From NCBI GenBank assembly GCA_017415165.1, contig JAFQIY010000022.1, positions 1 to 64,000 on the forward strand: 64,000 bases of DNA, read 5' to 3'. Source of the stretch: Oscillospiraceae bacterium. Its GTDB lineage: Bacteria; Bacillota; Clostridia; Oscillospirales; Ruminococcaceae. Of this stretch, positions 8,418-54,303 are shown piece by piece. Made by a program: the position numbers and the translations under genes. Position 1 is the stretch's first letter; every line of letters begins with the position of its first letter. The notes under the pieces are model-generated. The model was not told the DNA's origin and did no database searches. It worked only from the letters and a program-made list of their open reading frames with translations.

Positions 8418-9176
8418 ATGGAAATGACATTTTCTTCTCCGCAGATGTTCGGCTTTGTTGTAAGGGCAATTCTGACCATTGCCTTTCCGTTTATATGTAT
8501 TTTTATTACACATAAGAAATTTGACGGCAGGATTTTTCCTTTTGTAATCGGACTCGTTGCGGTAAATCTGCTTGTTCTTCCCCGTGCACTGTTGAGAGGT
8601 ATATTTGTGCCTGACAGCGGAGATTTTACGGTAAGGCTCGTCATTTCGTCACTTATAGGCGCATTCTGCGAGGAAACCGCACGATTTTTGATGTTCAGAT
8701 ATATGCTGAAGAATTACGATACCCTTACCGATGCGGTCTGCTACGGAATAGGTCACCACGGAATGGAGGTTATTCCAAGCGTAAGCTTTTGCTTTGATGC
8801 AATTGCAACGGGTTCAAAGCTGAACAGCGTGGGACTTGAAGCAATGATTGCAGGCTTGTCTGCGGAGAAAGCCGATGCACTTGTAAAACAGATTGAAATT
8901 TACACGTCAATAGGATTTTTGGAACACGCAGATGTTGTGCTTAGCTGGATAGCTTCGCTTGCGATGCAGATTGCCTGGTCGGTGCTTGTTTTCACGGCTG
9001 CATACAGGCAGGATTACCGCAAGTTCTACTTTGCTGCACTTCTGCTTCACGTTGTGGCAAACGTGCTTATTTACGGAGCAATTATGAACGTAATCGGTGC
9101 GACGGCTATGTGCTATTTTGCGTATCGTGTCGCAAAAAGCAGTGAACTGCCCGTTACTCATTCGGAATATTATTGA
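8418..9176 (+). CDS. YhfC-family intramembrane protease-like protein
   Basis: 252 residues, about seven to eight helices. The CEETARFLMFRYM segment (EExxR-type) and the later YGIGHHGMEVI segment match the glutamate and histidine active-site pattern of the YhfC / CPBP-related intramembrane proteases. It starts two bases after the PPOX stop. In the tandem duplication that produced the flanking region it is present only in the first unit, so it was either inserted there or lost from the second. Confidence 0.82.
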   Translation: MEMTFSSPQMFGFVVRAILTIAFPFICIFITHKKFDGRIFPFVIGLVAVNLLVLPRALLRGIFVPDSGDFTVRLVISSLIGAFCEETARFLMFRYMLKNYDTLTDAVCYGIGHHGMEVIPSVSFCFDAIATGSKLNSVGLEAMIAGLSAEKADALVKQIEIYTSIGFLEHADVVLSWIASLAMQIAWSVLVFTAAYRQDYRKFYFAALLLHVVANVLIYGAIMNVIGATAMCYFAYRVAKSSELPVTHSEYY

Positions 9177-9196
9177 CAAACGAAAGGACAAACATT

Positions 9197-9931
9197 ATGA
9201 AAAAATTTATAGCAATTCTCGCTCTTGCGGCAATGCTTACAGCTTGCTCCGACAGGGGAAATTCACCTGCTGAAACGACAGCAGAAACCACTATCGAAAT
9301 TACCACAGAAGCTACAACTGCTGCAACTACATCAGCAACAGAAGCTGAAACAACCACCGCCATTGAAGAATGTAAATGCGAACACGAATGGCAGCACGCT
9401 TTTGCTGAGCACATCAATGGACAAGAAAATTATGCAGGATTATATATTGGCGACATCAACGGCGACGAAACTCCCGAAGCGGTTATTGCACAAGGTAAGA
9501 ATGAAATGACAACGGTACTTTATTACCTTGACGGAGAAGTACGTCCACTTGATTTGCACGTTTCATCAAGCTGGGGTTATGTAAGATATATACCCGAAAC
9601 AAAACAGATACTGAATTGTCCGTTCTATGGTCACACTTGGGGCACTTTCGGTCAGGAAAACTATTATATTTACGAGTGGACTGACAAAGGTTATGTTGAA
9701 ACTTTTTCATTAACCCGTGAGGGTGGATACTATAATGATGAAACCTTCTTTGATTACGGTCAGGGCTACATAAACGGCGAGGAGGTTGACTTCGACACCT
9801 TTGAAGCAAAGCTTGCCGAAATGAAACAGCTTGTTGAGGAAAATGAATATTTCCCCTGCATTTACAAAGATGATGAAAATTACGCAGAATACGTTGCAGA
9901 AAACCTGCCCTGCGTTAAGATTGGAGAATAA
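9197..9931 (+). CDS. Secreted lipoprotein, tandem paralogue 1
   Basis: 244 residues: signal peptide with lipobox LTAC (Cys17 after cleavage), a Thr/Glu-rich low-complexity linker (about 22-55), then a compact domain beginning EECKCEHEWQH with a GDINGDETPE calcium-loop-like stretch. The function is unknown. Its N-terminal ~20 and C-terminal ~55 residues are almost identical to the next paralogue, but the middle is strongly diverged. The real start is the ATG after GAAAGGAC. The final codons (GE-stop) are formed by what is the ribosome site of tatD in the downstream copy. Confidence 0.85.
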   Translation: MKKFIAILALAAMLTACSDRGNSPAETTAETTIEITTEATTAATTSATEAETTTAIEECKCEHEWQHAFAEHINGQENYAGLYIGDINGDETPEAVIAQGKNEMTTVLYYLDGEVRPLDLHVSSSWGYVRYIPETKQILNCPFYGHTWGTFGQENYYIYEWTDKGYVETFSLTREGGYYNDETFFDYGQGYINGEEVDFDTFEAKLAEMKQLVEENEYFPCIYKDDENYAEYVAENLPCVKIGE

Positions 9932-9933
9932 CT

Positions 9934-10092
9934 ATGCTTGAATATATCGACTCACACGCACATTACGACGACGAAACCTTCGACAGCGACCGTGACAAGG
10001 AAATCGACGGGTTTTTCAGCCGTCTTCGTATGCTGGAGCTTACGGTTGAGCATATGACGGGCAAACAGGGGCTTGAAATGATGAAGAATTAA
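9934..10092 (+). pseudogene. Chimeric ORF: tatD 5' end fused to PPOX gene 3' end
   Basis: A 52-codon open frame. Codons 1 to ~20 (MLEYIDSHAHYDDETFDSD) copy the start of tatD at 10897. From codon ~21 onward (DKEIDGFFSRLRMLELTVEH) it copies the C-terminus of the PPOX-family gene at 8321-8416. The join falls in a 15-base stretch, gacagcgaccgtgac, present in tatD (10945-10959) and with one mismatch in the PPOX gene (8306-8320). The fusion is in frame and retains tatD's ribosome site, so it might still be translated, but it most likely is a scar of unequal recombination. Confidence 0.9.
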
Positions 10093-10114
10093 CTATACAG
10101 AAAGGACAAACATT

Positions 10115-10846
10115 ATGAAAAAATTTATAGCACTTCTCGCTCTTGCGGCAATGCTTACAGCTTGCTCCGACAGGGGAAATTCACCTGCCGAAACTACCAC
10201 AGAAGTAACCACTGTTACAACAACAGAAGTGGCAACCACTACATCAGCAACAGAAACAGAAGCTGAAACAACCGCAGCCATTGAAGAATGTAAATGCGAA
10301 CACGAATGGCAGCACGTTTTTTCCGAGTACATCAATGGTCTGGATTTTTATTATGGCTTATATGTGAAAGATTTTAATAATGATAGCATTCCTGAAGTTG
10401 TAGTTGCAAGAGATAGCTGTGAATGGACAGAAGTTCTTGTTTACAATGACGGTGAAATTAAATCTTACGAATATGTAACAGCCGGTTCATACGGATATGT
10501 TCGATATATACGTGACACTAATCAGATACTCCATTGTCCACTCTACGGTCACACCGCTACCACTCAAGGAATGGAAACAATTTTTATTTATGATTGGGTA
10601 GACAACGGATTTGTCGAAACATTTTCTATGGAACGTGATGCGGCATACTATGAACCTGACATTCTTGAATATACACAGGGCTACATAAACGGCGAGGAGG
10701 TTGACTTCGACACCTTTGAGGCAAAGCTTGCCGAAATGAAACAGCTTGTTGAGGAAAATGAATATTTCCCCTGCATTTACAAAGATGATGAAAATTACGC
10801 AGAATACGTTGCAGAAAACCTGCCTTGTGTGAAAATGGAGGAATAA
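10115..10846 (+). CDS. Secreted lipoprotein, tandem paralogue 2
   Basis: 243 residues, with the same plan as the gene at 9197: lipobox LTAC, Thr-rich linker (about 22-57), EECKCEHEWQH and an ~120-residue variable domain, then an almost identical C-terminal ~55 residues (from QGYINGEEVDFDTF). In the last ~150 bases before the stop the two genes differ at only about one position up to the final codons, while the middle domains share perhaps half their residues. This mosaic suggests gene conversion of the ends or diversifying selection in the centre. Function unknown. Confidence 0.85.
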   Translation: MKKFIALLALAAMLTACSDRGNSPAETTTEVTTVTTTEVATTTSATETEAETTAAIEECKCEHEWQHVFSEYINGLDFYYGLYVKDFNNDSIPEVVVARDSCEWTEVLVYNDGEIKSYEYVTAGSYGYVRYIRDTNQILHCPLYGHTATTQGMETIFIYDWVDNGFVETFSMERDAAYYEPDILEYTQGYINGEEVDFDTFEAKLAEMKQLVEENEYFPCIYKDDENYAEYVAENLPCVKMEE

Positions 10847-10880
10847 ACTCCTCACTTCACACTCCAAACTCCAAACTCTT
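10847..10880. repeat. Solo arm of the dispersed hairpin element
   Basis: A 34-base CACTCC-rich stretch between the second lipoprotein and tatD that matches the right arm of the hairpin repeat copies (aactcctcac... core) without the left arm or loop. The matching position after the first lipoprotein lacks it. It is either a decayed copy or the remnant of an excision. Confidence 0.7.
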
Positions 10881-10896
10881 AAAAAGGAGAATAACT

Positions 10897-11670
10897 ATGC
10901 TTGAATATATTGACTCACACGCACATTACGACGACGATGCCTTCGACAGCGACCGTGACGAGCTGCTTGTCCGTGTTCACGAGGGCGGCGTGAAATACAT
11001 TATAAATATGGGCTGTAATATGGAGCGTTCACGCTTTTCGGTGGAGTACGCAAACAAGTTCCCGTTCATCTATGCGGCGGTGGGAATTCACCCCGAGGAC
11101 GTGGACAAAGCGCCTGCCGACTATCTTGAACAGCTCCGCAAGTGGGCGGCTGACCCTAAGGTTGTTGCAATCGGCGAAATCGGACTTGATTACCATTACG
11201 ACGGCTATGACGCTGAATTACAGAAGAAAATTTTCGAGGAACAGCTTGATTTGGCACAGGAACTTGACCTGCCTGTTGTAATTCACTCCCGTGACGCAAC
11301 GGAGGACACGCTTAACATTCTCCGCAAGCGCGGTAAAGTAAACGGTGTAATGCACTGTTTCTCAGGCTCGGCGGAAACAGCTAAGCAGATGCTTGAACTT
11401 GGTCTGCATATCAGCTTTACAGGCGTGCTGACCTTCAAGAATGCGAAAAAGGCAATCAGTGCGCTGGGTGTTGTGCCTATGGACAAGCTTCTCCTTGAAA
11501 CGGACTGCCCCTATATGGCACCTGAGCCAAACCGCGGAAAGCGCTGCGACAGCAGTATGATTGTGCACGTTATTGATAAGATTGCCGCCGAAAAGGGCAT
11601 CACTCCCGAAGAAGTCGCAAAGCAAACAATGGAAAATACATTAAAGCTGTTTTATAAGATTAAATTATAA
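10897..11670 (+). CDS. tatD: TatD-family metal-dependent DNase
   Basis: 257 residues, TIM-barrel metallohydrolase: metal ligands in DSHAHYDD at the N-terminus, GEIGLDYHYD, the VIHSRDA histidine, HCFSG, and ETDCPYMAP near the C-terminus. TatD/YabD enzymes degrade DNA with 3' exonuclease activity and are usually linked to DNA repair or quality control. The start is the ATG after AAAAAGGAG. Its stop codon lies inside the left flank of hairpin element copy B. Confidence 0.94.
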   Translation: MLEYIDSHAHYDDDAFDSDRDELLVRVHEGGVKYIINMGCNMERSRFSVEYANKFPFIYAAVGIHPEDVDKAPADYLEQLRKWAADPKVVAIGEIGLDYHYDGYDAELQKKIFEEQLDLAQELDLPVVIHSRDATEDTLNILRKRGKVNGVMHCFSGSAETAKQMLELGLHISFTGVLTFKNAKKAISALGVVPMDKLLLETDCPYMAPEPNRGKRCDSSMIVHVIDKIAAEKGITPEEVAKQTMENTLKLFYKIKL

Positions 11671-11786
11671 TTTATAGAGTTAGGAGTGTTGAGAGTGGAG
11701 TGTGGAGTTGTTGTGTAAACTATGGTTCTCTTTAACTCCTCACTCCACTCTCCAAACTCCACACTCACAGACAAATTATAATTTAT
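11661..11786. repeat. Dispersed hairpin element, copy B
   Basis: Same element as copies A and C, with exact aaattataattt flanks at 11662-11673 and 11773-11784, inverted ~33-nt arms and conserved loop containing gtaaactatggttctcttta. The left flank overlaps the tatD stop codon, so insertion may have rebuilt the gene end. The position right after the gene is compatible with a terminator role. Confidence 0.88.
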
Positions 11787-11887
11787 ATTAGTAATTTTGA
11801 AACATAATCTTCGTATTTTGCTTTGGTTTTTATGATAAATAAACAAAGTGACGGTCTATATTTTTATTTCAAAATGGCGGAATAATA

Positions 11888-11915
11888 TTGATTTTTTCCA
11901 TTTTTGTGGTATAAT
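11888..11915 (+). promoter_or_regulatory. Promoter of serS
   Basis: TTGATT at 11888-11893, 16-base spacer, TATAAT at 11910-11915 preceded by an extended -10 TGG. It lies 35 bases before the serS start, leaving no room for a T-box leader. Confidence 0.8.
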
Positions 11916-11950
11916 TAATATATCTACAATTATGCAAAGGAAGTTTATTT

Positions 11951-13240
11951 ATGCTCGATATCAGATTCGTCCGCGAAAATCCGGACGTTGTTAAAGAAAA
12001 CATTAAAAAGAAATTTCAGGACTCTAAGCTTGCTCTCGTTGACGAGGTTATTGCTCTCGACACTGAGCTTCGTGCTGCCAAGACTGAAGCTGATGAGCTC
12101 CGTGCCAACAGAAACAAGGTTTCCAAGGAAATCGGCGGTCTGATGGCTCAGGGCAAGAAGGAAGAAGCTGAGGAAGCTAAGAAGAAGGTTACTCAGTACG
12201 CTGACCAGCTTGCTGCTCTCGAAGTCAAGGAGGCTGAGCTTGAAGAAAAGCTCACCAAGAATATGATGATTATTCCTAACATCATCGACGACAGCGTGCC
12301 AATCGGTAAGGACGACTCCGAAAACGTTGAGCTCGAAAAGTTCGGTGAGCCTGTTGTTCCCGATTTTGAAGTTCCTTATCACACAGATATCCTCGAAAAG
12401 CTTGACGGTATCGACCTTGACGCTGCAAGAAAGGTTGCAGGCAACGGCTTCTATTACCTGATGGGCGATATCGCAAGACTCCACAGCGCAGTAATTTCCT
12501 ACGCTCGTGACTTTATGATAAACAGAGGCTTCACATACTGCGTGCCACCATTTATGATCAGAAGCAACGTTGTTACAGGCGTTATGAGCTTCGCTGAAAT
12601 GGACGCTATGATGTACAAGATTGAGGGCGAGGACCTCTACCTTATCGGTACTTCCGAGCACTCTATGATTGGTAAGTATATCGACACAATCGTACAGGAA
12701 AAGACACTTCCTCACACCCTCACAAGCTACTCCCCCTGCTTCCGTAAGGAAAAGGGCGCTCACGGTATTGAGGAAAGAGGCGTTTACCGTATCCACCAGT
12801 TTGAAAAGCAGGAAATGATTGTTATCTGTAAGCCTGAGGAAAGTATGGACTGGTTCCATAAGCTTTGGAGAAACACTGTTGACCTGTTCGTTTCAATGGA
12901 CATTCCTGTCCGTACCATCGAATGCTGCTCAGGTGACCTTGCTGACCTTAAAGTCAAGTCCTACGACGTTGAAGCGTGGTCTCCAAGACAGAAGAAGTAT
13001 TTCGAAGTGGGCAGCTGCTCCAACCTTGGCGACGCTCAGGCAAGACGTCTCAAAATCCGCGTAAACGGTGAGGACGGCAAGAAATACTTTGCTCATACAC
13101 TCAACAACACAGTTGTTGCTCCTCCAAGAATGCTTATCGCATTTGTAGAAAACAACCTCTGTGAGGACGGCTCTGTTAAAATTCCTGAGGTTCTCAGACC
13201 TTATATGGGCGGACTTGAAAAAATCGTTCCTAAGAAGTAA
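11951..13240 (+). CDS. serS: Seryl-tRNA synthetase
   Basis: 429 residues, class II synthetase charging tRNA-Ser. The N-terminal ~110 residues form the long coiled-coil arm (KKEEAEEAKKKVTQYADQL), followed by the catalytic core with motif 2 (SPCFRKEKGAHGIEERGVYR) and motif 3 (NNTVVAPPRMLIAFVEN). Full length. It has its own promoter. The ribosome site is AAAGGAAG. The chemotaxis receptor downstream lacks an evident promoter and may be read through from here. Confidence 0.97.
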   Translation: MLDIRFVRENPDVVKENIKKKFQDSKLALVDEVIALDTELRAAKTEADELRANRNKVSKEIGGLMAQGKKEEAEEAKKKVTQYADQLAALEVKEAELEEKLTKNMMIIPNIIDDSVPIGKDDSENVELEKFGEPVVPDFEVPYHTDILEKLDGIDLDAARKVAGNGFYYLMGDIARLHSAVISYARDFMINRGFTYCVPPFMIRSNVVTGVMSFAEMDAMMYKIEGEDLYLIGTSEHSMIGKYIDTIVQEKTLPHTLTSYSPCFRKEKGAHGIEERGVYRIHQFEKQEMIVICKPEESMDWFHKLWRNTVDLFVSMDIPVRTIECCSGDLADLKVKSYDVEAWSPRQKKYFEVGSCSNLGDAQARRLKIRVNGEDGKKYFAHTLNNTVVAPPRMLIAFVENNLCEDGSVKIPEVLRPYMGGLEKIVPKK

Positions 13241-33030: not shown

Positions 33031-33696
33031 TTAGTTTCTCTTCTTTGCAACTACTGCAGCTGTACCAGCGAGAGCCATTACAACAGCCATAGCAGCTACA
33101 GGAGCGTTGCCTGTTTCTGTAGATGTTGTTGTAGAGTCAGCAGCAGGAGCAGCCTCAGCAGCAGGAGCGCCGTTCTTCATAAGGTCAGCGGATTCTTCTT
33201 CAGAAACCTGCTTGAATTCACCCTCTGGAGCACCAGCGGAAAGTGTAACGTTCTTGATGTTTACGTGGCAAACCTGGAAAGCCATACCAGCCTGTTCGCT
33301 TTCGCCGCCCTCGTAGTCAACGAATGTGGACCATACAGACTCAGGAACTACGAATTCGATTGTTGTGCAATCCTTAGGAACAACGATAAAGCCGTCGCCC
33401 TTAGCGTAAGCTGTGTCAGATGTAAGACCTGTCCATGTGAGCTGATCCCAAGAAACGCAGATGTTCATAGGCTTGAGGAGAGCGTTGATATCGCCAACCA
33501 GTGGAGCCTTGTGCTCAACGTCGAGAGTAACCTTAACGTCGCCGCCGATAGCTGCGAATTCAGCCTTAGGAATTACGCCTGTTGCGCCCCAGTCACCTGG
33601 ATACTCGCCGATAGAGAGAGCGAATGTGTTTACAGCTGTCATTGTTACAGCCATTGCTGCTGCTGCGATAGCAGCTACAATCTTCTTAAGTTTCAT
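33031..33696 (-). CDS. Secreted anchored protein, array member 1
   Basis: 221 residues: signal peptide (about 1-26, cut near NTFA), a beta-rich domain of ~140 residues (VKVTLDVEH, FVVPESVWSTF, CHVNIKNVTLS), a short Ala/Ser/Thr spacer, and a C-terminal STETGN followed by a 20-residue hydrophobic helix and AKKRN. This resembles a cell-wall or membrane sorting signal without the canonical LPxTG. GGAGG ribosome site before the ATG at 33696. A strong TATAAT lies upstream at about 33740-33745. Function unknown; a carbohydrate-binding-like fold is possible. Confidence 0.8.
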   Translation of the reverse strand: MKLKKIVAAIAAAAMAVTMTAVNTFALSIGEYPGDWGATGVIPKAEFAAIGGDVKVTLDVEHKAPLVGDINALLKPMNICVSWDQLTWTGLTSDTAYAKGDGFIVVPKDCTTIEFVVPESVWSTFVDYEGGESEQAGMAFQVCHVNIKNVTLSAGAPEGEFKQVSEEESADLMKNGAPAAEAAPAADSTTTSTETGNAPVAAMAVVMALAGTAAVVAKKRN

Positions 33697-33865
33697 TGTT
33701 ATTTCCTCCAATTCATTTGACAGTAAACCTGTCTAAAGTTAACAACTTAATTATAGCATTAACTTCGTCCAAACACAACATCTTTTTTTAATAATTATTT
33801 TAAAACTTTTTTGTGCAAAACATATAACCAAAAATATGAAACCGTTTTCGTCAGACTTCATAGTG

Positions 33866-33897
33866 AAAAAAAGAGAGACTCAAACGAGTCTCTCTTT
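33866..33897 (-). terminator. Terminator of surface-protein gene 2
   Basis: Perfect 12-bp stem aaagagagactc / gagtctctcttt (33870-33881 with 33886-33897), aaac loop, T-run on the minus strand. Confidence 0.88.
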
Positions 33898-33940
33898 AAG
33901 TATTACTGATTTGAATTAGTTTCTCTTAGAAGTGAAACTC

Positions 33941-34741
33941 TTAGTTTCTCTTCTTTGCAACTACTGCAGCAGCACCAGCGAGAGCCATTACAGCAGCGAT
34001 AGAAGCAACTGCAACGTTGCCTGTTTCTGTAGCTTCTGTTGTTGTGTCAGCTGCAGGAGCTTCTTCAACAACTTCTTCAACTACTTCTTCTTCAACTTCT
34101 TCAACGATTTCTTCTTCTACGATTTCTTCTTCAACAACTTCTTCAGCTGTTTCTTCTTCAGCAGCTTCTTCCTCTACTGCAGCTTCTTCTTCAGCAGCCT
34201 CTGTTGTTTCTTCTGTAGCTTCTTCAGCAGGAGCTTCTGTAGCTTCCTCAGCAGGAGCAGCAGCAATTTCGATTACGTTACCGTTAGCATCGAGGATATC
34301 AGCAGACTTTACAGTAAGTGTACCGCTCCAAGTCTGAATCCAGAACTGGCAGTATGTATCGGACTCAGCAAATACAGGCTTATCAAGAAGCCAAGTGATT
34401 GTACCGTTTTCAACGTCAGCAACGATTGGCTTAGCGTTTGTAGCCCATTCGTTGGAGAGCCAGCCTGTGGACTGGGAGTTAGCACCTATACCGCCGCCGA
34501 TCCAGTCTTCGGAACCGAATTCAACATAGTACTTTACACCATAGATAGTGTCAAGAGCGATGCCTGTGTCAGCTGTGAGGTTAGGGTCACCTTCCTTGTC
34601 AGCACGAACAAATACTGTACCGTTTGCGTCGCCTTCCTTCATGTAGTTTGTTGTGTCGATAACAGCGAATGCGTTTACTGCCATAGCAGATACAGCAACA
34701 GCTGCTGCAGCAACTGCAGCTACAATTTTCTTGAGATTCAT
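33941..34741 (-). CDS. Secreted anchored protein, array member 2, Glu-rich spacer
   Basis: 266 residues: signal peptide (about 1-26), a ~125-residue beta domain (GVKYYVEFGSEDW, QFWIQTWSGTLTVKSADIL), then a ~75-residue spacer almost entirely Glu, Val, Ala and Thr (VEEEIVEEEIVEEVEEEV), and ATETGN + hydrophobic helix + AKKRN. The 3' end, including the last codons and the following 25 bases, duplicates that of member 1. ATG with GGAGGAAAAAAC before it. Possibly sugar-binding; unproven. Confidence 0.8.
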   Translation of the reverse strand: MNLKKIVAAVAAAAVAVSAMAVNAFAVIDTTNYMKEGDANGTVFVRADKEGDPNLTADTGIALDTIYGVKYYVEFGSEDWIGGGIGANSQSTGWLSNEWATNAKPIVADVENGTITWLLDKPVFAESDTYCQFWIQTWSGTLTVKSADILDANGNVIEIAAAPAEEATEAPAEEATEETTEAAEEEAAVEEEAAEEETAEEVVEEEIVEEEIVEEVEEEVVEEVVEEAPAADTTTEATETGNVAVASIAAVMALAGAAAVVAKKRN

Positions 34742-34881
34742 TGTTTTTTCCTCCAAATAAATAAATTGACGTTTTAACGCCTTTGTAACAATAATTATAA
34801 CATTATACATTCATTTAGACAATATGTTTTTTTTATAATTATTACGGCTATTTTTTGTTTATTTTATTGAATTCCGCAAAA

Positions 34882-34915
34882 TAAAAATCCGCCTCGTAAA
34901 CCGAAGCGGATTTTA
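34882..34915 (-). terminator. Terminator of surface-protein gene 3
   Basis: Stem aaaatccgc-tcg / cga-gcggatttt around a taaac loop, T-rich on the minus-strand 3' side. Confidence 0.82.
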
Positions 34916-34940
34916 TACATTAAGTTATTTCCAAAAAAGA

Positions 34941-35540
34941 TTAGTTCTTCTTGGATACTACTGCAGCTGTACCAGCGAGAGCCATTACAACAGCCATAGC
35001 AGCGATAGGTGCATTGCCTGTTGGAGGTGCATCTGTTGTTGTAGCTTCTGTTGTTTCAGCAGCACCGCCGCCGAGACCGGAAACTGTGAATGTAACCTTA
35101 ACAGAAGAACTGATTGGTGTAGCCTGGTTTACAGGAGGGTTATCCTTTGTAAGACCATACTGGTTGTAGATTTCAATTCTGTAGTTGCCCTTTTCTTCGA
35201 TATCGCCGTACTGAATACCAGCAGCGTCAAAAGAAATTTCAGCGCCGTCAACTTCTACCTTGTCGAGAACAGCTGTAGCGTCAGGGTTGCCAGCGTACAT
35301 ACCTGTGATATCAACTACAAATACGCCGAAATCGCAAGCACCTGCAACGAGTGTGGATTCGATTGTGTACTGACCGTCGCCTGTAACTGTTGTGGATGCT
35401 TCCCAGTCCTGAGCAGCCCAAGCTGTATCAGCAAAACCGAGAACAGCCTGATATTCGTCAGCAGCGAATGCGTTAACAACCATTGTGGAAACAGCAACAG
35501 CTGCAGCTGCGATAGCAGCAATAATCTTCTTGAGCTTCAT
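34941..35540 (-). CDS. Secreted anchored protein, array member 3
   Basis: 199 residues: signal peptide (about 1-26, NAFA), a ~130-residue beta domain that begins YQAVLGFADTAWAAQDWEAS and contains GDGQYTIEST, KVEVDGAEISFDAAG and KVTFTVSGLGGG, a Thr-rich spacer, then PPTGNAPIAAMAVVMALAG and SKKN. Its opening and the GDGQYT element are shared in spirit with member 5 (YLADETWSSQ, GDGTYTTSVEF), so these two domains are probably homologous. Confidence 0.8.
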   Translation of the reverse strand: MKLKKIIAAIAAAAVAVSTMVVNAFAADEYQAVLGFADTAWAAQDWEASTTVTGDGQYTIESTLVAGACDFGVFVVDITGMYAGNPDATAVLDKVEVDGAEISFDAAGIQYGDIEEKGNYRIEIYNQYGLTKDNPPVNQATPISSSVKVTFTVSGLGGGAAETTEATTTDAPPTGNAPIAAMAVVMALAGTAAVVSKKN

Positions 35541-35592
35541 AATAAATTCCTCCAATTTTCTTTTATTCTCTTATCAGCATAAGATTATAAAA

Positions 35593-35659
35593 ACATTATA
35601 CACCATTTTATCAAAAAAATCTATATTAATTTTGTATCAAATAATAACGTTTACATTGT
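35593..35659 (-). promoter_or_regulatory. Conserved upstream segment, gene 3
   Basis: 67 bases identical at 63 positions to 36390-36456. On the minus strand it contains TATAAT (35595-35600) about 55 bases before the start of array member 3 and a conserved TTTGATACAAAAT block upstream; the -35 is weak. It is a duplicated promoter and possibly a shared operator. Confidence 0.7.
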
Positions 35660-35667
35660 AAATATTA

Positions 35668-35698
35668 ACAAAACCCCGCCATTGTCGACGGGGTTTGT
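35668..35698 (-). terminator. Terminator of surface-protein gene 4
   Basis: Minus strand AAACCCCGTC ... GGCGGGGTTT with a TTGTT tail. Confidence 0.8.
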
Positions 35699-35704
35699 TT
35701 GCTA

Positions 35705-36340
35705 TTACTTATTCTTCTTTGCAGCAACAGCAGTTGCGGCAGCAAGTGCCATTACAACAGCCATAGCAGCAACAGGAGCATTGCCTGTTTCAGGAGCAGT
35801 TGTTGTTTCAGCAGCTTCTGTTGCTTCAGCAGCTGCATCACCGAATGATACGGAGAAGTTTACTTCAAATGTATCAACAGGTGAACCGAAGGAATAGCTG
35901 TCGCCTTCCTCAGACATAGGGCAGTCGCCTGCTTCAACAAATGTTTCAGCCCAGCCATTAATCATACATACGTCAATAACGCCGCTGTCAGGGTTTACAA
36001 GCTCATACTCTGTTTTTGTAGGAGTAAGTGTTTTACCGTTTGCTGTAATTGAGTTGATTGTTACTGTACCGCCGTTGAATGCTTCTGGAGCAGCACCGCC
36101 TGTAACATCCTTGATGTAAAGGGTGATATAAAGGTTTTCGCCGCCTGCATTAAGGCTTACGCTGTAGTCGCCTCCGTCAGTGCTGATGTCAAAAGCATCG
36201 GACTCATAAAGTGTCCACGACTCTGTATTCTGTGAATAGAGCTTGCAGCTGACTGTTTCAGCAGCAAATGCGTTGACAGCCATTGCGGAAACGGCAACAG
36301 CCGCAGCTGCTACTGCAGCAATAATCTTTTTAAGCTTCAT
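35705..36340 (-). CDS. Secreted anchored protein, array member 4
   Basis: 211 residues: signal peptide (about 1-26, NAFA), beta domain (WTLYESDAFDISTDGGDYSVSL, ENLYITLYIKDVTGG, VDTFEVNFSVSFGDA), spacer of Ala/Thr/Glu, then APETGNAPVAAMAVVMALA and AKKNK. The APETG is close to a classical xPxTG sorting motif. Its upstream segment duplicates that of member 3. Confidence 0.8.
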   Translation of the reverse strand: MKLKKIIAAVAAAAVAVSAMAVNAFAAETVSCKLYSQNTESWTLYESDAFDISTDGGDYSVSLNAGGENLYITLYIKDVTGGAAPEAFNGGTVTINSITANGKTLTPTKTEYELVNPDSGVIDVCMINGWAETFVEAGDCPMSEEGDSYSFGSPVDTFEVNFSVSFGDAAAEATEAAETTTAPETGNAPVAAMAVVMALAAATAVAAKKNK

Positions 36341-36389
36341 AATAAATTCCTCCAAAATCAATTGTATCCTACCCATAGTAAGATTGTAA

Positions 36390-36456
36390 ACATTATACAT
36401 CATTTTATTGAAAAAATCTATATTGATTTTGTATCAAATAATAACGTTTACATTGT
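36390..36456 (-). promoter_or_regulatory. Conserved upstream segment, gene 4
   Basis: Second copy of the 67-base segment at 35593-35659, with TATAAT on the minus strand at 36392-36397. The shared TTTGATACAAAAT block suggests common control of array members 3 and 4. Confidence 0.7.
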
Positions 36457-36470
36457 GCAAACACACAAAT

Positions 36471-36505
36471 AAAACGCCCTTTGCTTTTGGTGCAAAGAGC
36501 GTTTT
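36471..36505 (-). terminator. Terminator of surface-protein gene 5
   Basis: Stem aaaacgc-ctttgc / gcaaag-gcgtttt around a ttttggt loop, T-run on the minus strand. Confidence 0.82.
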
Positions 36506-36509
36506 CAGC

Positions 36510-37316
36510 TTATTTCTTTTTTGTCATAAAAGCAATCAGACCTGCAAGTGCTGTTACTGCTGCTATAGGTGAAATCGGGGCGTTGCCTGTATCGGGGATA
36601 TCGGTTTTATCGCCTGCGGAAGTGTTTCCCTCAACAGGAATTTCCTCAGCTGCACCTTCCGTCTGTTGATTTTCAGTATCAGGGGTGACATTGTCCTCCT
36701 CAGGAGTCTGTTCATCGGGAACAGCAGGTGTATCAGCCTCCTCAGGTGTATCAGAGGTGATATTTTCGTTTGTAATGCCTGTGCCCTTAATTTCAAAGGT
36801 TACCTCAACGGACTTTATACCTGACGTCCAATCAGACTTGTACACATAATTCTCGCTTGCGTCAACAAGGGGATTAAGTATATTTATTTTCATAAAGCCG
36901 CCGTCATTTATGTCGCTTACCGAAGTGTTTCCCTGCACCTCGCTGCCGTCCGCCCTGACGCAGACAATACTCATTTCGGCATCGGGATAAGCGGCAAATT
37001 TGCTGTTTGCTCCGCTGCCTGTTCCAGCGATATCTGAGCTGAGACAGAAAACGTGACCGTAGCTCATTTTCTCCGAAAACTCGACAGAGGTTGTATATGT
37101 ACCGTCCCCGGTAATTTCGGCAGGAGTAAGCGAAGCTATTCCTATTGTATTTTCATCGTCAAGTCCGCCGCCCCAATAAACCTGACTGCTCCAGGTTTCG
37201 TCGGCAAGATAAATTGCTGCTGAGCCTATTACTGTATCGGCGGAAACTGTTACTGTTGTCACAGCTGCAAAGACAGCCGCTGCTGCAGCTGCTGAAAGAA
37301 TTTTCCTGAAATTCAT
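36510..37316 (-). CDS. Secreted anchored protein, array member 5, IPDTG motif
   Basis: 268 residues: signal peptide (about 1-26, VSA), beta domain starting IYLADETWSSQVYWGGG with GDGTYTTSVEF and VEVTFEIKGTG, a Pro/Glu/Thr-rich spacer (DTPEEADTPAVPDEQTPEEDN), then IPDTGNAPISPIAAVTALAG and TKKK. The IPDTG is the clearest LPxTG-like sorting signal in the array, supporting a sortase reading for the others. AGGAG ribosome site. Homologous to member 3 by domain layout. Confidence 0.82.
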   Translation of the reverse strand: MNFRKILSAAAAAAVFAAVTTVTVSADTVIGSAAIYLADETWSSQVYWGGGLDDENTIGIASLTPAEITGDGTYTTSVEFSEKMSYGHVFCLSSDIAGTGSGANSKFAAYPDAEMSIVCVRADGSEVQGNTSVSDINDGGFMKINILNPLVDASENYVYKSDWTSGIKSVEVTFEIKGTGITNENITSDTPEEADTPAVPDEQTPEEDNVTPDTENQQTEGAAEEIPVEGNTSAGDKTDIPDTGNAPISPIAAVTALAGLIAFMTKKK

Positions 37317-37441
37317 AGTAAACTCTCCTATTGCGGAAAAATCCGTATAAACACTTATACATTTTAATTATACCTTATACAAATTCAAAAGTCTATACTG
37401 ATTTTTAACAAATAAATCCATTCCCATTATACAGCTCAGAC

Positions 37442-37478
37442 AAAAAATAAGCTCCGCCTTATTCAGACGGAGCTTATT
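37442..37478 (-). terminator. Terminator of surface-protein gene 6
   Basis: Stem aataagctccg / cggagcttatt with a short internal mismatch, followed by TTTTTT on the minus strand. Confidence 0.85.
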
Positions 37479-37492
37479 CAAGCAAATATTAA

Positions 37493-37810
37493 TTACTTAG
37501 CCTTCTTTGCAACAACTGCAGCAGCAGCGAGTGCAACAGGAATTACAGCGAGAGCAACTGCGGAGTTACCTGTTGTTGGGTTTGAAACCTCAACCTCTTC
37601 AGTAACTTCTTCCTCAGTAACTTCTTCTTCGTCGATTTCTTCTTCAACGATTTCTTCTTCAGTTACTTCTTCTTCCTCAACGATTTCTTCTGTAACAACT
37701 TCTTCATCGAGAACTTCGTCATCAGCTTCAGCTTCAGCAGCGAATGCTGTTGTAGCAACCATAGATGTAACTACAGCACAAGCAGCGAGAGCAGCAAGAA
37801 TCTTCTTCAT
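37493..37810 (-). CDS. Acidic stalk-only anchored protein, array member 6
   Basis: 105 residues: signal peptide (about 1-24), then ~45 residues built of Glu/Val/Thr repeats (EEVVTEEIVEEEEVTEEE), then NPTTGNSAVALAVIPVALAA and KKAK. There is no globular domain at all. It looks like a bare anchored polyanionic stalk. The anchor NPTTG resembles NPxTG sorting signals. It has its own promoter and terminator. Role unknown: a spacer, a charge shield or a metal-binding coat. Confidence 0.8.
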   Translation of the reverse strand: MKKILAALAACAVVTSMVATTAFAAEAEADDEVLDEEVVTEEIVEEEEVTEEEIVEEEIDEEEVTEEEVTEEVEVSNPTTGNSAVALAVIPVALAAAAVVAKKAK

Positions 37811-38079: not shown

Positions 38080-38424
38080 TTAGTCAACCAGTGAAATGAT
38101 AGCCATTTCAGCTGCGTCACCGCGTCTTGGTCCGATCTTGATGATTCTTGTGTAACCGCCGTTTCTGTCAGCGTACTTTGGTGCGATTTCATCAAAAAGC
38201 TTCTTTACAACGTCTTCCTTAGTAACGTATGCAAGAACCTGACGCTTGGAGTGAAGATCGTTTGTCTTAGCTGTTGTAATCATCTTTTCAGCCATAGAAC
38301 GAACTTCTTTAGCTCTGGTTACTGTTGTTTCGATTTTGCCGTTTTCAAGCAGATATGTTACCATAGCTCTGAGCATAGCCTTTCTATGGTCGCTTGTGCG
38401 GCCCAGTTTTCTGGTTCCCGGCAT
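38080..38424 (-). CDS. rplQ: Ribosomal protein L17
   Basis: 114 residues, full bacterial L17 ([21 protein letters not shown] at the N-terminus). It sits at the tunnel exit side of the 50S subunit. Last gene of the S10-spc-alpha cluster, 28 bases after rpoA. Confidence 0.97.
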
Positions 38425-54078: not shown

Positions 54079-54303
54079 TACATTCAAACACAAGCTTACC
54101 TTTGGGCAGACACAGGACTCCCCACGGTTTAAGCACAGACAGTGTTCGATATCACAGCCGCCCGACTCTCAGGTCAGACATACTCCACGGAAATTCCCCT
54201 GCAAACCGCAGGCCACCTTCCGCTTCCTCGCAAAAACATATAAAATACGGTGTAATCAGCCACCGTAAACAGCTACAATTTCTGTAACTGTCGCAGTCAC
54301 GCA
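54048..54303 (-). ncRNA. Structured leader or independent small RNA upstream of rpsJ
   Basis: About 256 nt from the predicted start to the internal terminator, no coding frame of note. Minus-strand folds: a 9-bp stem ACAGTTACA / TGTAGCTGT, then ACGGTG / CACCGT, then CCTGC / GCAGG nested in GGAA / TTCC, then the terminator. It does not match the tmRNA, RNase P or SRP RNA cores I know, and its ends do not pair as a 6S RNA would. Either an S10-operon attenuator or an unnamed ncRNA. Confidence 0.6.

Follow-up and report, generated by a model that had tools for sequence, protein, structure and literature searches.

In Staphylococcus aureus, the class B sortase SrtB anchors IsdC, a small haem binder embedded in the cell wall that passes its ligand to a membrane importer, and in Bacteroides the surface glycan-binding proteins (SGBPs) of Sus-like systems are tethered at the cell surface and operate together with an importer. 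To our knowledge, how glycans are held in, and passed across, the thick wall of Gram-positive gut bacteria is less clear than in Bacteroidetes. The single sortase SrtB of Clostridioides difficile has eight predicted substrates with an xPxTG-type signal, and is reported to cleave SPKTG, PPKTG, SPSTG and SPQTG, and not NVQTG, LPETG or NPQTN (PMC4155245). Here we describe an array of six consecutive genes in a 64,000-nt stretch (hereafter the window; positions 1 to 64,000 of contig JAFQIY010000022.1) from the 2.62-Mb genome of an Oscillospiraceae bacterium. The genes, named P1 to P6 by their order in the window and transcribed from P6 towards P1, lie on the minus strand between rplQ and a gene (32309) that inspection suggests is hpt. 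We propose, giving it an even chance, that the array and its kin encode abundant wall-anchored ligand-capture proteins that feed importers, organised like the Isd haem relay and built from unrelated domains.

With the SrtB-IsdC relay the locus shares class B sortases, and it would also share small wall-anchored binders that hand their ligand to an importer, as suggested by three tail genes that stand before importer genes; it differs in its cassette of four sortases, in its tails (NPxTGN and T-x-[SAP]-[AP]-x-TGN versus NPQTN), and in importers of sugar or vitamin type. Because no match to the NEAT domain was found at E ≤ 0.05 in 27 representative proteins, we describe the array as working like the Isd relay and not as a member of it. 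The likeness to the C. difficile system lies in a class B enzyme, a small substrate set and an xPxTG-type signal, and the differences in four sortases standing in a row and in Ala occupying the Pro position in 40 of 78 tails of one class (class 2, below). The link to Bacteroides comes from SGBP-B (6e57), which ranks first for the predicted fold of P1. The tails also resemble the C-terminal anchor model NF033846 of NCBIfam (Rumino_NPXTG, named for Ruminococcus), and none reaches its cut-off of 23.5 bits: the best score was 22.0 in the genome search and 17.3 with whole proteins, P2 to P5 matching at E < 0.1, P6 at 0.23 and P1 in the genome search only.

A preliminary description of this DNA had recognised six consecutive minus-strand genes whose products carry a signal peptide and a C-terminal TGN followed by a hydrophobic helix and a Lys tail, and the open reading frames (ORFs) bear this out. 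Signal peptides are evident by inspection in all six proteins, the MKLKKI start attributed to four of them being present in three (P1, P3 and P4) and replaced by MNLKKI in P2, and each protein closes with TGN, a hydrophobic segment some 18 residues long and KK. The Pro at position 2 of the xPxTG motif is present in P3, P4, P5 and P6, and absent from P1 and P2. Searching the genome at E values up to 10 with a profile built from 30 tails gave nine places, the six array genes and three genes elsewhere that we call X16 (contig C49), X12 (C34) and X07 (C27), the last being the weakest match (5e-4). With six of the nine lying side by side, the grouping exceeds what chance would give. All nine products have signal peptides by inspection. 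The standard anchor model PF00746 matched no tail of this genome above its cut-off. Across 61 genomes, counting our own, every one of the 21 in the genus carries tails at E ≤ 0.001, as do six of the 40 outside it (six tails in G022 and one or two each in G025, G033, G035, G036 and G050), the other 34 having none.

The tails collected at the fetched loci fall into two classes. Class 1 (29 tails, with Pro in 27) reads N-P-x-T-G-N followed by a conserved helix and is found in P6-like stalks and X12-like large proteins; in P6-type proteins, mean identity between genomes reaches 95.6% over 23 residues. Class 2 (78 tails) reads T-x-[SAP]-[AP]-x-TGN, with Thr at position -5 in 77, and its canonical Pro position holds Ala in 40, Pro in 27 and another residue in 11. 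All 107 matched tails have G and N, and 105 keep T, an invariance that is partly circular because the tails were chosen by their TGN; a laxer filter on the same loci gave three further tails that lack it. In the third array gene of G003 (L023:9863-10867) the tail reads EKNGN, Asn replacing the motif Thr. Concerted evolution of the class 2 tails was considered and rejected, the gap between DNA identity within genomes (0.778, 107 pairs) and between them (0.734, 1973 pairs) being too small.

The genome encodes five sortases of family PF04203, all class B homologues, four in tandem on contig C69 and one on C35. Against the class B model TIGR03064 (cut-off 153.75 bits), srt1 scores 154.8 and srt2 to srt4 and the C35 copy score 128.8-138.8, below the cut-off; the nearest solved proteins to srt1 are sortase B. 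The catalytic His, Cys and Arg are invariant in nine aligned sortases, and the pattern is found in 36 of 36. The earlier suggestion that the array proteins are substrates of a non-canonical sortase is thus well supported, by five class B homologues, four of them in tandem with their catalytic residues, and by the three further TGN-tail proteins. None of the outcomes that the preliminary description had named as refuting came about: sortases are present, the nine tail proteins bear signal peptides by inspection, and the two modelled domains are beta-rich. Sortase presence alone is not specific, because most genomes of the order have class B sortases (57 of the 61, tails being present in 27). 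Within the genus, class B hits were obtained in 20 of 21 genomes, with four on one contig in 15, and G012 (78% complete) gave none. The sister genus represented by G022 has both the tails and the four-sortase cassette, a co-occurrence that supports the link between them, yet is confounded with kinship.

All ten cassettes that we fetched, one of them from G022, hold four sortase genes in a row, followed in nine by a homologue of the SpoIID-domain gene (assigned by Pfam in our own genome only) and a pyrimidine-phosphorylase-like gene, the tenth stretch ending before that point. The third sortase is 600-865 aa long in the nine cassettes used for the tree and, in the two aligned, bears long low-complexity extensions rich in Glu, Pro and Thr at both termini. 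In a maximum-likelihood tree of these nine cassettes and the C35 copy (L055 left out), each cassette slot forms one group (support 95/100, 98/95, 100/100 and 100/99); the tree program warned of a possible false joining of the long srt3 and srt4 branches, an issue that leaves the grouping within slots untouched. By BLAST the third gene of L055 and that of L056 best matched srt1 over their length, and the tree places the L056 gene in the srt3 group. Most simply, the four paralogues would have arisen before the two genera separated and would have stayed distinct since then. The fifth sortase (L018:6234-7166, on C35) belongs to the srt2 lineage and adjoins genes that by inspection look like CotH-type and other secreted-protein genes.

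The middle domains had been described as different in each protein. This stands for P1 and P2, which are distinct; P3, P4 and P5 belong to one family and P6 is an acidic stalk, so that 'varied' was too strong there. The middle domain of P3 is related to that of P5 (z 8.3 over shuffled copies) and to that of X16 (z 7.7), and P4, with a pairwise z of only 1.9 against P3, enters this family B through relatives. Among 114 distinct tail proteins, family B counts 33 members, family A (P1) 24 and family D (P2) 22, the last including one A-domain protein (L040) pulled in by its stalk. An array protein of G012 (L065:5170-6444, 424 aa) bears a family D and then a family A domain in one chain, and these domains can therefore act as combinable modules. 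An apparent identity of families A and D (hhalign probability 100) was rejected, as it was caused by two proteins (L065 and L040) present in both sets.

The link to uptake comes from the three dispersed genes. X16, a family B member, stands before genes for two permeases, a solute-binding protein and a DUF624 protein, and the hairpin scan shows no terminator-like site in the gap between X16 and the permease. Downstream of X12 come the gene of a 973-aa protein containing a solute-binding domain, two genes of permease type (of which one matches Pfam) and one with NHL repeats; this importer set is separated from X12 by two hairpins and a complete promoter-like site. X07 adjoins a DUF4430 gene or overlaps with it, and genes for CbiQ, an ATP-binding cassette (ABC) ATPase and an energy-coupling factor (ECF) S-component come next. 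All three tail genes outside the array therefore precede importer genes. In relatives, six of nine candidate X16 loci match X16 and have the same transporter genes behind, and the remaining three encode a tail protein that lacks a match to X16, one of them with a family D domain; of eleven X12-type loci, nine have importer genes, one lies at a contig end and one has none. At L073:8391-13944 the gene of a TGN-tail protein comes before one of DUF4430/prenyltransferase-like type and a set of ECF-type transporter genes, an arrangement resembling an uptake locus for cobalamin or another vitamin.

Some family B genes are also preceded by LacI/cre-like operator sequences, TGTAAACGTTA upstream of P3 and P4 and, more widely, TGTAAACGTT. 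Of 31 family B genes, 9 have TGTAAACGTT upstream, compared with 1 of 18 genes of the P6 type and none of 55 from families A, D, A/D and X12; variants of a longer motif, ACAATG-TAAACG-TTATTATTT, precede further family B genes, including X16-like ones. The ten-base core is present in 10 of 109 upstream regions, against 0.08 expected after base shuffling, occurrences that are not independent events because related genes share ancestry; it is also found inside some genes. Based on the shared variants, P3, P4 and the X16 importer cluster look like one regulon. A near-perfect inverted repeat of 14-15 bp lies upstream of X16 (L072:9453-9488), beside or overlapping the operator-like ACAATGCGAACATT.

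Codon usage was scored against the 24 ribosomal genes of the window, with correction for amino-acid make-up and with the ribosomal genes themselves scored leave-one-out. P1, P2, P3 and P6 reach 1.30-1.33 (P2 1.31, P3 1.33, P6 1.33), above all 24 ribosomal genes (0.76-1.18), the 32 other ORFs of the window ranging from -1.55 to 0.98; P4 scores 0.83 and P5 -0.40, at background level. Outside the array, X12 (1.26) and X16 (1.24) score high, X07 reaches 0.32 and the sortases lie between -0.55 and -0.08. By these scores most of the set should be produced at very high levels, P5 and X07 excepted, and it is as such a predicted abundance that the 'surface coat' of the preliminary description survives. 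The main rival takes it further, to an abundant wall-anchored layer, protective or architectural, that would replace an S-layer and capture no ligand. The codon scores would suit it, as would P6, a stalk that lacks a domain, and the position of P6-type genes behind the ribosomal operon, after rplQ in 10 of 14 judgeable relatives (G001, G004, G005, G010, G011, G013, G014, G016, G018 and G019; in G006 and G007 the gene lies farther along, by some 8-9 kb, in G015 it is on a different contig, and in G003 it is on the opposite strand about 15.5 kb from rpoA; contig ends removed G002, G008, G009 and G012 from this count, and the lack of a full rpoA G017 and G020). We nonetheless consider a purely structural coat unlikely, as the same tails and the family B domain precede importer genes, a LacI/cre-like operator stands at family B genes, P5 has background codon usage, and the array offers three domain families and a stalk instead of one repeated subunit.

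An adhesin system, as the preliminary description had also put it, would have these domains attach to mucin of the host, to plant particles or to other cells and so fix the bacterium in place. Structure prediction gave beta-rich models for both domains modelled (P3 with a predicted local distance difference test score, pLDDT, of 78.2); the top-ranked SGBP-B match of P1, a glycan-binding protein, has a middling score, and pilin and ClfA domains are among the many middling matches of P3. Probable wall anchoring, beta-rich domains and these matches are what an adhesin would show. The array proteins, of small size (105-268 aa) and each with no more than one domain, do not resemble long fibrillar adhesins, and the importer genes beside related tail genes point instead to ligand capture for import; no direct support for adhesins emerged, and we regard them as distinctly improbable. 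The six window proteins have no match above cut-off in Pfam or NCBIfam, and the 27 representative proteins gave 13 weak Pfam matches (best E 0.0029) with no collagen-binding, pilin or adhesin model among them. Four of these 13 names are of carbohydrate-binding or glucanase type (PF21253, PF14600, PF08305 and PF22815; E 0.019-0.047), which we do not count as evidence. A profile search of the PDB with families A and D returned matches at E 0.73 and 0.76 only. The family B domain weakly matched the CBM15 structure 1gny (E 2e-4 with flanks, 0.026 for the domain alone); CBM15 did not appear in the fold lists of VIA-align, which excludes nothing. A cellulosome or xylan-degrader reading was rejected, the genome having neither dockerin (PF00404) nor GH10 (PF00331), and the xylan ligand hinted at by CBM15 is for that reason not backed.

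That the C-terminal helix and Lys tail simply hold the proteins in the membrane, with TGN a relic uncut by any sortase, has in our view only a slim chance: the absence of the motif Pro from P1, P2 and 51 of 78 class 2 tails and a class 1 helix conserved beyond the needs of a sorting signal would fit it, and against it stand the near-invariant TGN (with the circularity noted above) and the co-occurrence of tails and cassette in the genus and G022, though kinship could explain the latter.

The surroundings of the array are summarised in Table 1. As described earlier, each gene has one terminator-like hairpin behind its stop; these are strong (11-15 pairs), begin 5 to 62 bases 3' of the six stops and, with a further one of 10 pairs behind rplQ, are among 15 sites found in a scan of the window against 4.7 expected. 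Among relatives, the genes behind the P6-type gene differ in number and kind. Compared with G011, ratios of non-synonymous to synonymous substitution (dN/dS) are 0.09-0.42 for five array genes (P2 left out) and 0.03-0.04 for two flanking genes, a ratio we do not press because codon bias depresses synonymous rates. In G011, genes that by inspection are phage terminase- and portal-like lie past an NCS2-type permease adjoining the array (L024:138-4275; 8726-12863 reversed). An S10-Clostridia ribosomal leader RNA (RF03136) is found at 54158-54236 of the window, upstream of the ribosomal operon.

Table 1. Features of the array and its surroundings, with the sortase cassette of the same genome. Positions are those of the window unless a locus is named; gene starts were set at an ATG preceded by a purine-rich ribosome-binding site.
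Feature	Position	Strand	Description
P1	33031..33696	-	221 aa; MKLKKI signal peptide; family A beta domain; tail STETGN
P2	33941..34741	-	266 aa; MNLKKI signal peptide; family D domain; long acidic stalk; tail ATETGN
P3	34941..35540	-	199 aa; MKLKKI signal peptide; family B beta-sandwich domain; tail APPTGN
P4	35705..36340	-	211 aa; MKLKKI signal peptide; family B domain; tail APETGN
P5	36510..37316	-	268 aa; family B domain; tail IPDTGN
P6	37493..37810	-	105 aa; signal peptide and acidic stalk, no domain; class 1 tail NPTTGN-SAVALAVIPVALAAAAVVAKKAK
rplQ (named by inspection)	38080..38424	-	upstream neighbour of the array
Terminator-like hairpin after P6	37445..37479	-	
Terminator-like hairpin after P5	36471..36505	-	
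Terminator-like hairpin after P4	35671..35696	-	
Terminator-like hairpin after P3	34884..34914	-	
Terminator-like hairpin after P2	33870..33897	-	
Terminator-like hairpin after P1	32944..32969	-	
Operator-like sequence upstream of P3	35645..35655	-	TGTAAACGTTA
Operator-like sequence upstream of P4	36442..36452	-	TGTAAACGTTA
Sortase cassette	L017:7513-12439 (contig C69)		four tandem class B sortases, then a SpoIID-domain gene

We favour ligand capture because it accounts most simply for the tails, the sortases, the abundance, the importer neighbourhoods, the operator and the folds taken together. In this scheme, class B sortases, most likely members of the tandem cassette, would cut the TGN-type signal and link the proteins covalently to the wall; five proteins would display beta-rich domains that bind a ligand, probably a glycan or oligosaccharide, on flexible stalks that are acidic or rich in Thr and Ala; most array proteins would be produced in large amounts; and the ligand would be kept in the wall near membrane importers, which for most members are of sugar type, and then passed to them. 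Judged from the genes, anchoring by sortase is likely and ligand capture plausible, and glycans are our best guess for the ligand. More tentatively, we see here a possible Gram-positive counterpart of the Sus/SGBP systems, in which four non-redundant sortases, kept in fixed order in two genera, would build up, within the wall, a relay of highly abundant binders that belong to several undescribed carbohydrate-binding families, the NPxTGN and the Ala-tolerant signal being handled by different sortases and the relay feeding sugar ABC importers as well as ECF-type vitamin importers.

Among the papers listed in our literature searches, none describes this array or a four-sortase class B cassette in its title or in the opening of its abstract. 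What appears to be new is the combination of four conserved class B paralogues, two signals with a possible tolerance for Ala, unnamed domain families and a linkage to importers. If the proposed reading is true, the organism would possess a compact system of a four-enzyme class B cassette, two sorting signals and about nine substrates in its genome, with several domain families that lack a Pfam name. Its class B sortases may then tolerate Ala in place of the motif Pro, which would bear on sortase specificity and on peptide-ligation tools.

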